This document shows positions 27,984-53,685 of a stretch of DNA of 64,000 nucleotides, one piece after another; the first letter of the stretch is position 1, and each line of letters starts with the position of its first letter. Position numbers and translations under genes: made by a program. This DNA is from Holophagaceae bacterium (GTDB lineage Bacteria > Acidobacteriota > Holophagae > Holophagales > Holophagaceae). The notes beneath the pieces were generated by a model. The model did no database searches. It worked only from the letters and a program-made list of their open reading frames with translations, and was not told where the DNA came from. The DNA lies in assembly GCA_021286765.1 (NCBI GenBank), contig JAJTBS010000001.1, positions 310,001-374,000 on the forward strand, written 5' to 3'.

Positions 27984-28026
27984 GGCACATGCCAGGCGGG
28001 TTCGGAGGCCGCGCCTGGCATGTGCC
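27984..28026 (-). terminator. Strong 15-bp hairpin after the FAD oxidase gene
   Basis: Perfect 15-bp arms (27984-27998 and 28012-28026) enclose a 13-nt loop, 22 nt downstream of the FAD amine oxidase stop on the minus strand. Reading on, a TTTT occurs about 9 nt after the stem, so it may act as a weak intrinsic terminator. It separates the FAD oxidase cluster from the DUF2339 operon. Confidence 0.5.
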
Positions 28027-50348: not shown

Positions 50349-51088
50349 TGGAAGCCCGCGTCCTGCGCTGTTCGGGTTGCGGTGCCTCGGTGCCGCCGGA
50401 CGCGACCCAGTGTCACTATTGCAAGGCGCAACTGGCGACGGTGGCCTGCTCCGCGTGCTTCGCCCTGGTCCCCCTTTCCGCGAGCCACTGCCCCGGCTGC
50501 GGCGCAGCCATGGCGCCCCGGGCTGCCTCACCGGCCACGGGCGCGCCCTGTCCGGCCTGCGCGAAACCCCTGGCTTCCGCCCAGGTGGGTGACCTGGCGG
50601 TGGGCGAGTGCCTCGCCTGCGGTGGACTCTGGCTGGACCGCGCGGTGTTCGAGCAGCTGGGGGCCAGCCGCGAGCGCCAGGGGGCGGTGCTCGGTGCCCT
50701 GCCTGCGCCGGATGGGACGGCGGTGATCAAGCTGGAGCCAGTCCAGTACCGGCCCTGTCCAGCCTGCAGCCAGCGCATGAACCGGGTGAATTATGCCAAG
50801 CGCTCCGGCGTGGTCCTGGACGTGTGCAAGGCCCATGGCCTCTGGTTCGACAAGGATGAGCTGCGCCGCGTCCTGGCCTTCATCGCCGGCGGCGGGCTGG
50901 ACCGGGCCCGCGAGCTGGAGATCGAGGCCCTCAGGGACGCCCGGCGAGCGGCGGTGCCAACACCGCCGCATCCAGCCTCCTCCTATGAATTCACGCAGCA
51001 GATGAACGCCTCGGGCCACTGGCTGACCGCCGCCGGCCTGGTGGGGCTGGCCATCGATGTGGCCGAGCTGTTCCTGGACGGGAACTGA
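50348..51088 (+). CDS. Multi-zinc-ribbon protein (zf-TFIIB type)
   Basis: 246 aa. It contains five or six CxxC knuckles: CSGCG/CHYC, CSAC/CPGCG, CPAC/CLACGGLWLD and CPAC/CKAHGLWFD. The last two pairs match the zf-TFIIB pattern C-x2-C...C-x2-(C/H)-G-x-W-(L/F)-D. A weakly hydrophobic C-terminal helix (WLTAAGLVGLAIDVAELFL) may touch the membrane. It is coupled to the lipoprotein gene and abuts tpiA with no intergenic base. Function unknown; the fold suggests metal or protein binding. Confidence 0.82.
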   Translation: MEARVLRCSGCGASVPPDATQCHYCKAQLATVACSACFALVPLSASHCPGCGAAMAPRAASPATGAPCPACAKPLASAQVGDLAVGECLACGGLWLDRAVFEQLGASRERQGAVLGALPAPDGTAVIKLEPVQYRPCPACSQRMNRVNYAKRSGVVLDVCKAHGLWFDKDELRRVLAFIAGGGLDRARELEIEALRDARRAAVPTPPHPASSYEFTQQMNASGHWLTAAGLVGLAIDVAELFLDGN

Positions 51089-51823
51089 TCAACCCGCCTG
51101 CTTCACCAATTCAGCGAACTTGCGGGGATCCAGGCTGGCGCCGCCCACCAGGCCTCCGGCCACTTCGGGAATGCCCAGCAGCTCGGGGAAGCTCTCGGGT
51201 GTGACGCTGCCGCCGTAGAGGATGGGCACCCGGTACTCCGTGCCGGCAAGGTGGCGGTTCAGCTCGGTCCGGATGAAGGCGTGGGCCTCGCGCACCTGGG
51301 CGGCCTCGGCGCGGCGGCCGGTGCCGATGGCCCAGACCGGCTCGTAGGCCACCCAGAGAGGGCCGGGCCCGGTCTCGGCCAGGATGGCCAGTTGCTGGGC
51401 GAGCACGTCCAGGGTCTGGCCGGCGTCGCGCTGTTCCAGCGTCTCGCCGATGCAGAGCAGGGGCAGCAGGTCCCACTGCCAGGCGGCCTTGACCTTCTTC
51501 GCCAGGGCCACATCGGTCTCGCCGAAGAACTGACGGCGCTCGCTGTGCCCAAGCAGCACGCCGGAGCAGCCCGCATCGCGCAGCTGGGGCATGGAGATCT
51601 CGCCTGTGAAGGCGCCCTTGGCCTCGGCATGGCCGTTCTGCCCGAAGACCTGGAGGCCCCGGGGCCGGACCAGGTCGCTCACCTGGTGCAGGAGGGTGAA
51701 GGGCGGGGCAATGCCCACCTCCGCCTCGGACTCCGGTGCCATGCGTCCGAGCAGGTCTTCACAAAAGGCCTGGGCCTCATCCTTGGTCAGGTTCATCTTC
51801 CAGTTGGCGACAACGCAGCGCAT
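51089..51823 (-). CDS. tpiA: Triosephosphate isomerase
   Basis: 244 aa. It interconverts dihydroxyacetone phosphate and glyceraldehyde 3-phosphate. Catalytic Lys in VVANWKMN, His in GVLLGHSERRQ and Glu in VAYEPVWAIGTG, with the phosphate loop YGGSVTPES and VGGASLD. GGAG precedes the ATG. An 18-bp element shared with the divergent gene ends 30 nt before its start. pgk, the usual operon partner, lies nearby on the same strand but is separated by the plus-strand DUF3224-like gene. Confidence 0.97.
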   Translation of the reverse strand: MRCVVANWKMNLTKDEAQAFCEDLLGRMAPESEAEVGIAPPFTLLHQVSDLVRPRGLQVFGQNGHAEAKGAFTGEISMPQLRDAGCSGVLLGHSERRQFFGETDVALAKKVKAAWQWDLLPLLCIGETLEQRDAGQTLDVLAQQLAILAETGPGPLWVAYEPVWAIGTGRRAEAAQVREAHAFIRTELNRHLAGTEYRVPILYGGSVTPESFPELLGIPEVAGGLVGGASLDPRKFAELVKQAG

Positions 51824-51853
51824 GGGCTCTCCTCGATGACATCCATATCCTGA

Positions 51854-51925
51854 TTGAGGCTATCAGCCTTCCCGGGGACGCACATACCCGGTCGGTGTCC
51901 CGCCGGCGAAGGCTGATAGCCTCAA
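51854..51925. repeat. 18-bp perfect inverted repeat in the tpiA divergent promoter region
   Basis: Arms 51854-51871 and 51908-51925 are perfect inverted copies separated by 36 nt. Each arm, read toward its gene, has the same 18-nt sequence and lies 30 nt (tpiA) or 32 nt (DUF3224-like gene) before the start codon. This symmetry suggests a shared promoter or operator element used in both directions rather than a terminator. Confidence 0.75.
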
Positions 51926-51957
51926 CGTCAGATGACCTCGATCCCCCAGGAGGCTCC

Positions 51958-52485
51958 ATGCCCGGTTTCCGATCCCGACCGCTGTTCCTTTGGGCTTGGG
52001 CTCTCGGCCTGGCCTGGTCCCTGGGTGCTCAGAGCGCCGCTCCGGTTCCCCCCACCCCACCGAAGAAGGAGGCCCGCATGACAGCCCGCGCAGAAGGATC
52101 ATTCGAGGTGAAGCTGGCGCCTCTCACCGAGGGAACCCGGAAGGAGGCCTGGGCGCCGGGCCGTATGTCCATCGACAAGCAGTTCACGGGCGGTCTTGAG
52201 GGAACCAGCCAGGGCGAGATGGCGATGGCGGGCACGGAGGTGCAGGGCTCGGCCGGCTACACGGCCATCGAAAAGGTCACGGGGAAGCTCCATGGCCGCA
52301 CCGGCACCTTCCTCCTGCAGCATTTCGCCGTGATGGCCCGTGGGGTTCCAGGTGAGTGGATCATCCTGGTGATTCCCGACTCGGGCACCGGCGAGCTGAA
52401 AGGGCTCACCGGCCGGTTGACCATCACGATCACCGGCAAGGAGCACGCCTACGCCCTGGACTACAGCCTTCCGGAGAAACCCTGA
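51958..52485 (+). CDS. Secreted DUF3224-like protein
   Basis: 175 aa with a signal (LFLWAWALGLAWSLGAQS) and AGGAGG before the ATG. The mature part is a beta-rich domain of DUF3224 type (RAEGSFEVKLAPL, IDKQFTGGLEGTSQGEM, GYTAIEKVTGKLHGRTGTF, DSGTGELKGLTGRLTI), possibly a lipocalin or allene-oxide-cyclase-like barrel. Function unknown. It is divergent from tpiA and ends 3 nt from the pgk stop. Confidence 0.8.
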   Translation: MPGFRSRPLFLWAWALGLAWSLGAQSAAPVPPTPPKKEARMTARAEGSFEVKLAPLTEGTRKEAWAPGRMSIDKQFTGGLEGTSQGEMAMAGTEVQGSAGYTAIEKVTGKLHGRTGTFLLQHFAVMARGVPGEWIILVIPDSGTGELKGLTGRLTITITGKEHAYALDYSLPEKP

Positions 52486-52488
52486 AGC

Positions 52489-53685
52489 TCAGCGCTGCAG
52501 GGCGGCGACGCCGGGCAGATCCAGGCCGCTGAGGAACTCCAGGCTGGCGCCGCCGCCGGTGGAGACATGGCTCATGCGGGGCCCCACGCCGGCCTTGTTC
52601 ACGGCGGCCACGCTGTCACCGCCACCCACCAGCACGAAGGCGCCCTGGTCGGCCGCATCCGCCAGCTCCTCGGCCATGGTCAGGGTGCCGCTGGCGTAGG
52701 GGGCCATTTCAAAGACGCCCATGGGGCCGTTCCAGAGGAGGGTCTTCGCGGCGCGGATCTCAGCCGCGTAGGCGGCCACGGTTTCGGGCCCGATGTCCAG
52801 GGCCATGCGGTCCGCCGGGATGTTCTGGTCCAGGGTGATGGCGCAGTCGGCATCTTCTTTGAACTCGGCCGCCGCCACATGATCGAGGGGCAGGAGCAGG
52901 CGCGTTCCCTTGGCTTTGGCCTGTTTCAGCAGGTCCAGGGACAGCTCCAGCTTGTCTTCCTCGCAGAGGCTCTTGCCGATCCCGTAGCCTTGGGCCTTGA
53001 GGAAGGTGTAGCTCATGGCGCCGCCGATGAGGATGGCGTCGGCCTTCCCCAGGAAGTTCTGGATGAGTTCGATCTTGTCGCTCACCTTGGCGCCGCCGAA
53101 GATCACCACCAGGGGCTTGTCGGGGTTGTGGACGACCTTGCCGAGGGCCTTCAGTTCCTTCTCCATGAGGAAGCCCGCGGCCACTCGATCCTTCGGGAAG
53201 TGGGCCACCATGCCGCTGACCGAAGCGTGGGCCCGGTGGGCCGAGCCGAAAGCATCGTTCACGTAGGTGTCCGCCAGCTTCGCCAGGTCCGCGGCGAAGT
53301 CCTCCTTGTTCTTCGTCTCGCCCTTCTCGAAGCGCAGGTTTTCCAGCAGCAGGATCTGGCCGGGTTCCAGGGCTGCCGCCTCCGCTTCCACCGCGGCGCC
53401 GTTCACGTAGGAGGCAAGTCGGCAGTCGAAACCCTGCTCCTTCAGCCAGGCCGCCACGGGCGCGGCGCTGTAGGCGGCCTCGAAACCCTTGCCTTCGGGC
53501 CTTCCCAGGTGGGAGGCCATCACCACGGAGGCGCCCCCATCCAGCAGGCACTTCAGCGTAGGCAGCGTCTCCTTGATGCGGGTGGCATCCGTGATGCGCC
53601 CCTCCTTGAGGGGCACGTTCAGGTCCGCCCGGAGGAAGACCCGGTGGCCCTTCACCGCGAGATCGCGCACCGATAGGAAACCCAT
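52489..53685 (-). CDS. pgk: Phosphoglycerate kinase
   Basis: 398 aa, full length. It transfers phosphate between 1,3-bisphosphoglycerate and ADP. Substrate loops RADLNVPLKEGRITDATRI and ASHLGRPEG, the hinge, FGGAKVSDKI and the nucleotide motif LVGGGDSVAAV are present, with the C-terminal FVSTGGGASLEFLSG-type helix (here HVSTGGGASLEFLSG). GGAGCAGCC precedes the ATG. The gapdh gene often found next to pgk is not in the window. Confidence 0.97.
   Translation of the reverse strand: MGFLSVRDLAVKGHRVFLRADLNVPLKEGRITDATRIKETLPTLKCLLDGGASVVMASHLGRPEGKGFEAAYSAAPVAAWLKEQGFDCRLASYVNGAAVEAEAAALEPGQILLLENLRFEKGETKNKEDFAADLAKLADTYVNDAFGSAHRAHASVSGMVAHFPKDRVAAGFLMEKELKALGKVVHNPDKPLVVIFGGAKVSDKIELIQNFLGKADAILIGGAMSYTFLKAQGYGIGKSLCEEDKLELSLDLLKQAKAKGTRLLLPLDHVAAAEFKEDADCAITLDQNIPADRMALDIGPETVAAYAAEIRAAKTLLWNGPMGVFEMAPYASGTLTMAEELADAADQGAFVLVGGGDSVAAVNKAGVGPRMSHVSTGGGASLEFLSGLDLPGVAALQR

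Follow-up and report, generated by a model that had tools for sequence, protein, structure and literature searches.

Why should two perfect, inverted copies of one 18-mer stand at nearly the same distance from the start codons of two divergent genes? In the 64-kb stretch of Holophagaceae DNA analysed here, hereafter the window, exact copies of GAAGGCTGATAGCCTCAA occur at 51908-51925 on the plus strand and at 51854-51871 on the minus strand, 32 nt before the ATG of a DUF3224 gene (51958) and 30 nt before the minus-strand ATG of tpiA (51823), respectively. The initial annotation had reported this geometry and had taken the flanking genes to be tpiA and a DUF3224-like gene. The copies are exact and the coordinates match, and Pfam agrees with both identities: PF00121 (TIM, 2.3e-81) for tpiA, encoding triosephosphate isomerase (51089-51823, minus strand), and PF11528 (DUF3224, 1e-36) for the divergent gene (51958-52485, plus strand), whose product has a hydrophobic N-terminus by inspection. 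The next gene is pgk (52489-53685, minus strand; PF00162).

The element is confined to this locus. With up to three mismatches the 18-mer has two sites in total in the 64-kb window, compared with a shuffle mean of 0.01, and the sole genomic sites of its 14-bp core are the pair between tpiA and DUF3224 (at most one mismatch; 3,152,536 bases in 8 contigs). Because the core is restricted to one pair genome-wide, it is not a dispersed repeat, and no regulon is evident. A REP- or MITE-like palindromic repeat, the mobile element that the initial annotation had set against its own reading, is ruled out by this single pair in place of many copies, and no further sites of the 14-mer core (at most one mismatch) precede other genes anywhere in the genome, as a transcription-factor regulon would entail. 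Imperfect extension of the repeat yields 23-nt arms that are 91% complementary and separated by a 26-nt gap, and the folded DNA strand has a z of -7.5. Nine inverted pairs within 150 nt were reported across the whole window; the arms are separate and non-overlapping in two of them, the 18-mer pair and a perfect 15-nt inverted repeat at 27984-28026 (GGCACATGCCAGGCG), the arms of which are 13 nt apart. Searched as a 15-mer with at most one mismatch, the element has matches in 32 of the 77 family genomes, and 10 of those 32, the window genome included, have a match no more than about 80 nt before tpiA.

Gene order in relatives indicates what may once have separated the two copies. Among the 77 family genomes, tpiA is present in 74 and DUF3224 in 17. 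Directly behind pgk, at a spacing of 7-38 nt, tpiA is found in 26 of the 44 scorable genus members; in other members of the genus a module lies beside it, consisting of DUF3224 and then a divergent AraC-type gene with HTH_18 and DUF6597 domains that points to tpiA. Wherever the retrieved stretch extends to pgk, the module sits between pgk and tpiA. DUF3224 adjoins tpiA in 12 genomes, with the AraC-type gene between them in 10 and absent in the window genome and in G006. Relatives of the AraC-type gene of genome G030 occur in 15 of the 77 family genomes (E <= 1e-20), and at the same threshold the window genome has none anywhere. The relatives show the familiar arrangement of an AraC-family regulator with a divergent target, HTH_18 and DUF6597 beside DUF3224, and this is likely the ancestral state; unlike them, the window genome has neither the regulator nor the presumed operator.

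Some loci depart from this scheme. G018 (locus L114), whose tpiA is the closest match (94%), has a plain pgk-tpiA pair and no module, so the history of module gain, loss or recombination is not simple at first sight. In G020 (L128, 755-1429) the AraC-type gene is truncated within its HTH region, of which the C-terminal part is missing, and ends exactly at CTGATAGCCTC, which is kept for tpiA. Near a contig start in G037 (L123, 1-232), the sequence upstream of tpiA resembles neither pgk nor the module and may be repetitive or come from a misjoined contig end. For distant tpiA relatives, L033 was used from among the best 80 loci listed, the rest being at most 50% identical. Among the listed matches, the nearest named record by tpiA is an uncultured Holophagaceae MAG (84%).

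The end of the AraC-type gene accounts for the 18-mer itself. In the closest AraC-bearing relatives the end of the gene, which lies next to tpiA, reads GAA GGC TGA TAG CCTC, so the 18-mer corresponds to the last two codons, the stop codon and the bases that follow. It matches the gene ends at 18 of 18 positions in G033 and G019 and at 16-17 of 18 in seven others. Similarity continues beyond the 18-mer: the window is identical to the 3' end of the G030 AraC-type gene at 44 of 49 nt, and 0 of 300 shuffles did as well. The minus strand from 51913 to 51863 still encodes AFAGGTPTGYVRPREG followed by a stop, the G030 counterpart being AFLGRTPSGYGRPREG and a stop. Judged from the match to G030 and the preserved reading frame, this stretch of 17 codons (16 codons and the stop) is a remnant of an AraC-type gene lost here, and loss of that intervening gene, which was not visible to the initial annotation, would be the origin of the symmetry. 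Where LGRTP stands in all nine relatives, the remnant has AGGTP; these changes are near the breakpoint described below and may belong to the event itself. In the genomes in which the AraC-type gene is absent or truncated, local alignments to the window do not beat the best shuffles (shuffles as good, of 300: G020, 11; G004, 128; G005, 42; G006, 138; G008, 3). These alignments consist of an 11-12 nt match at the putative -10 element in four of the five (G004, G005, G008 and G020) and a chance match elsewhere in G006. Conservation on the tpiA side is owed in part to the coding constraint on the AraC end.

Homology to the relatives ends sharply. In an ungapped alignment of the window with G030, anchored on TGATAG, the arm is identical at 17 of 18 nt and the stretch from AGCCTTC to the arm at 34 of 43 nt, while upstream of AGCCTTC the window matches each of nine relatives at just 7-10 of 26 nt. 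Among columns that are invariant in the nine relatives, the window departs at 0 of 14 in the arm, at 1 of 14 between and at 10 of 17 upstream. The heptamer at which homology ends, AGCCTTC (51908-51914, strand unassigned), has its inverted partner, GAAGGCT, in the other arm (51865-51871). In G030, which has the closest AraC end, a 6-bp inverted pair, AGCCTT/AAGGCT, is already present at the same place; none of the eight other relatives examined has a pair at that position. The pair in G030 speaks for a switch at this point, its presence in just one of nine relatives against it. A template switch at a short inverted repeat would be expected to end homology in this abrupt way, and the reverse-complement copy, which such a switch would add, is absent from the corresponding place in relatives. 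Sequence beyond the 18-mer is not mirrored, so that the second breakpoint, near DUF3224, has no defined position. The spacer between tpiA and DUF3224 measures 134 nt here versus about 0.95 kb in G030, a net loss of about 0.8 kb. A return to the original template beside the point of departure is thus not the case relative to G030, and the event is better described as a template switch with deletion than as a classical member of the quasipalindrome class. An inverted duplication of the whole leader, reaching the ribosome-binding site, was rejected, as 313 of 2000 shuffles scored as well.

The deletion would also account for what is missing before DUF3224. The motif TGTCGCGTTTCTACAATAC occurs once per genome in 13 of the 77 family genomes (at most two mismatches), namely in G030 (L206), G009 (L201), G044 (L208) and ten others, and all 13 sites lie between DUF3224 and the DUF6597/AraC-type gene. 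At the same tolerance it is absent from the window genome. Its TACAAT would plausibly make a good -10 and the rest a candidate operator. In another family of the phylum, a near-match (L248) occurs without any AraC or DUF3224 gene recognisable beside it. Conversely, TGNTAGNCT is found on the DUF3224 strand in 0 of 17 other DUF3224 upstream regions (16 genomes), and in those 17 regions the 18-mer core, in either orientation, never comes closer than 4 mismatches of 14. It seems from these comparisons that the DUF3224 gene lost its old promoter together with the neighbouring regulator and gained an inverted copy of the tpiA -10.

That the copied piece contains a promoter element is suggested by TGATAGCCT, which is present in both copies and has the form of an extended -10 (TGn upstream of a TAnnnT hexamer). 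On the tpiA side, where the 18-mer (51854-51871, minus strand) comprises the last two AraC codons and TGA, the predicted extended -10 overlaps them, with TG at 51865-51864 and TAGCCT at 51862-51857; in the inverted copy before DUF3224 (51908-51925, plus strand), predicted from the motif alone, TG is at 51914-51915 and TAGCCT at 51917-51922. Among genus members with tpiA detached from pgk, meaning that the module is present or the spacing is 68-119 nt, TGnTAGnCT occurs within 150 nt upstream of tpiA in 15 of 18, compared with 0 of 26 in which tpiA lies within 38 nt of pgk; left out of these counts were G037 (odd upstream sequence, short contig), G026 (contig end) and G043 (no tpiA found). Genomes that lack the AraC-type gene (G004, G005, G006 and G008) keep the motif, and in G020 it sits right where the truncated gene breaks off. 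The module-bearing G053, from outside the genus, also carries the extended -10 before tpiA. Counting against a general rule, the three detached genus members without it (G007, G012 and G016) have a tpiA-pgk spacing of 68-70 nt, and outside the genus it is missing before seven of seven tpiA genes located 115-141 nt from pgk.

The distribution of the motif in the window genome points the same way. TGNTAGMCT has 20 sites, 18 of them (L214-L231) besides the 18-mer pair, and none of these 18 lies inside a called gene, compared with 16 of 20 control sites for the reversed pattern and 17 of 20 for a pattern keeping TAG (20 of 68 and 20 of 26 sites examined in the two sets). A same-strand gene start follows within 150 nt at 12 of 17 sites, versus 0 of 20 and 1 of 20 controls. 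Seventeen sites were scored together; the eighteenth (L216) fell beyond the position tolerance and was scored separately as outside genes. Genes were called with a simple codon-usage script written for this analysis and trained on the window. Against a promoter stand the lack of a convincing -35 element at either copy (best matches 2 and 3 of 6) and a simple sigma-70 scan, which found no promoter here. We regard TGNTAGMCT as a candidate extended -10, typical of the lineage and lacking a clear -35. The preference of the initial annotation for duplicated promoter units over an RNA hairpin is supported to this extent, in that TGATAGCCT stands at promoter distance in both 18-mers and the motif class is -10-like. 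The two predicted -10s are distinct, 51857-51862 on the minus strand and 51917-51922 on the plus strand, and a bidirectional promoter with one shared element was rejected.

Taken together, the symmetric element is probably the scar of a rearrangement, a template-switch deletion with an inverted duplication that copied the promoter of tpiA. The ancestor would have had the order pgk, DUF3224 facing a divergent DUF6597/AraC-type regulator, and tpiA, whose extended -10 (TGATAGCCT) would have overlapped the stop codon of the regulator. During replication, the growing strand would have switched template at the short inverted microhomology in the 3' end of the regulator gene, at a point located to within about 10 nt, copied the end of that gene and the tpiA -10 backwards, and rejoined near DUF3224. 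The net outcome would be the removal of about 0.8 kb, including the regulator and the native DUF3224 promoter and operator, and the placement of a mirror copy of the tpiA -10 before DUF3224. We infer both the template-switch route and its being one event. The copied -10 would now drive DUF3224, whose expression would probably be free of its old regulation. That a single replication error removed regulator and operator and set a mirror tpiA promoter before the presumed target, a one-step rewiring to tpiA-like expression, is possible, though considerably less assured than the scar itself. Since then, selection on both promoters or recurrent template switching may have preserved the identity of the arms.

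Template switching at short inverted repeats is a described mechanism in E. coli (PMC7202029). The present case resembles the quasipalindrome mutations outlined there in that one arm is copied and a short imperfect repeat becomes a longer perfect one; it differs in that the polymerase there returns to the correct template, whereas here about 0.8 kb is also lost, and in that the segment copied here includes a promoter-like element. Template switching that creates hairpins, as summarised in PMC8794818, likewise yields a reverse-complement copy and a perfect hairpin in one event, but there the products are stems of RNA genes, while here the copy appears relevant to a promoter. The bidirectional promoters of Warman et al. 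(PMC12825309) share with this locus a symmetric DNA region from which divergent transcription is expected, but their -10 is shared by the two strands, whereas here separate -10s are 54 nt apart. Among the papers searched, none dealt with DUF3224 or DUF6597, none with bacterial promoter capture by inverted duplication, and none that was related with Geothrix promoters; the mechanism papers returned showed no matching case in their titles and abstract openings.

The strongest alternative accepts the scar and takes the copy on the DUF3224 side to be inert, with the gene either not expressed or transcribed from another site, and with no regulatory role for the symmetry. The lack of a -35 would fit such a copy, as would the absence of the motif from every other DUF3224 upstream region examined and the sparse distribution of the gene, whose presence in just 17 of the 77 genomes means that its absence is tolerated. 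We nevertheless consider it unlikely, because the distance to the start codon is nearly equal at both genes, the arms are identical at 18 of 18 nt, and sites of this motif class in the genome lie outside called genes.

Far less probable is an artefact, in which an amplification or assembly chimera produced the inverted junction with its deletion. Foldback chimeras at microhomology look alike, and the scar is seen in one genome only; on the other side, the locus is inside a 1.2-Mb contig of an 8-contig assembly that is 95.6% complete, the AraC-type gene was not found elsewhere in the assembly, and AGGTP in place of the LGRTP of all nine relatives is as expected of decay after loss. We give equally little credence to a paired operator, in which a protein recognising the 18-mer or its AGGCTgatAGCCT dyad would co-regulate tpiA and DUF3224. 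Perfect inverted copies with an internal dyad would suit it, but the core has only two genomic copies (at most one mismatch), the left half of the dyad is AraC coding sequence that is not fully kept in all relatives, and relatives without the AraC-type gene retain only TGnTAGCCT and neighbouring bases. The operator part of the original proposal is therefore not borne out: no regulon is seen for the 14-bp core at up to one mismatch, and the DUF3224-side copy is absent from the 17 other upstream regions. The functional coupling of tpiA with the DUF3224 gene that was drawn from it is likewise unsupported, as the core is confined to one pair and the DUF3224-side copy is absent in relatives. Least credible of all is an RNA hairpin acting as attenuator, terminator or riboregulator, since, despite a strong predicted fold (z -5.9 as RNA), there is no Rfam match in 51000-53000 up to an E of 1 and no terminator-like site with a T-run after the stem, the inverted arm is not conserved, and neither transcript would span both arms if transcription began immediately after each -10.

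Read as the scar of a small template-switch rearrangement, the locus is a natural case in which comparison with relatives reveals the likely ancestral gene order, what remains of the lost gene, one of the breakpoints and the end result. That end result resembles a duplicated promoter and not merely a broken gene. It also advises caution, as perfect divergent symmetry does not imply a shared operator. For the little-studied Holophagaceae lineage, the comparison yields a candidate extended -10, TGnTAGmCT, that is directly testable.
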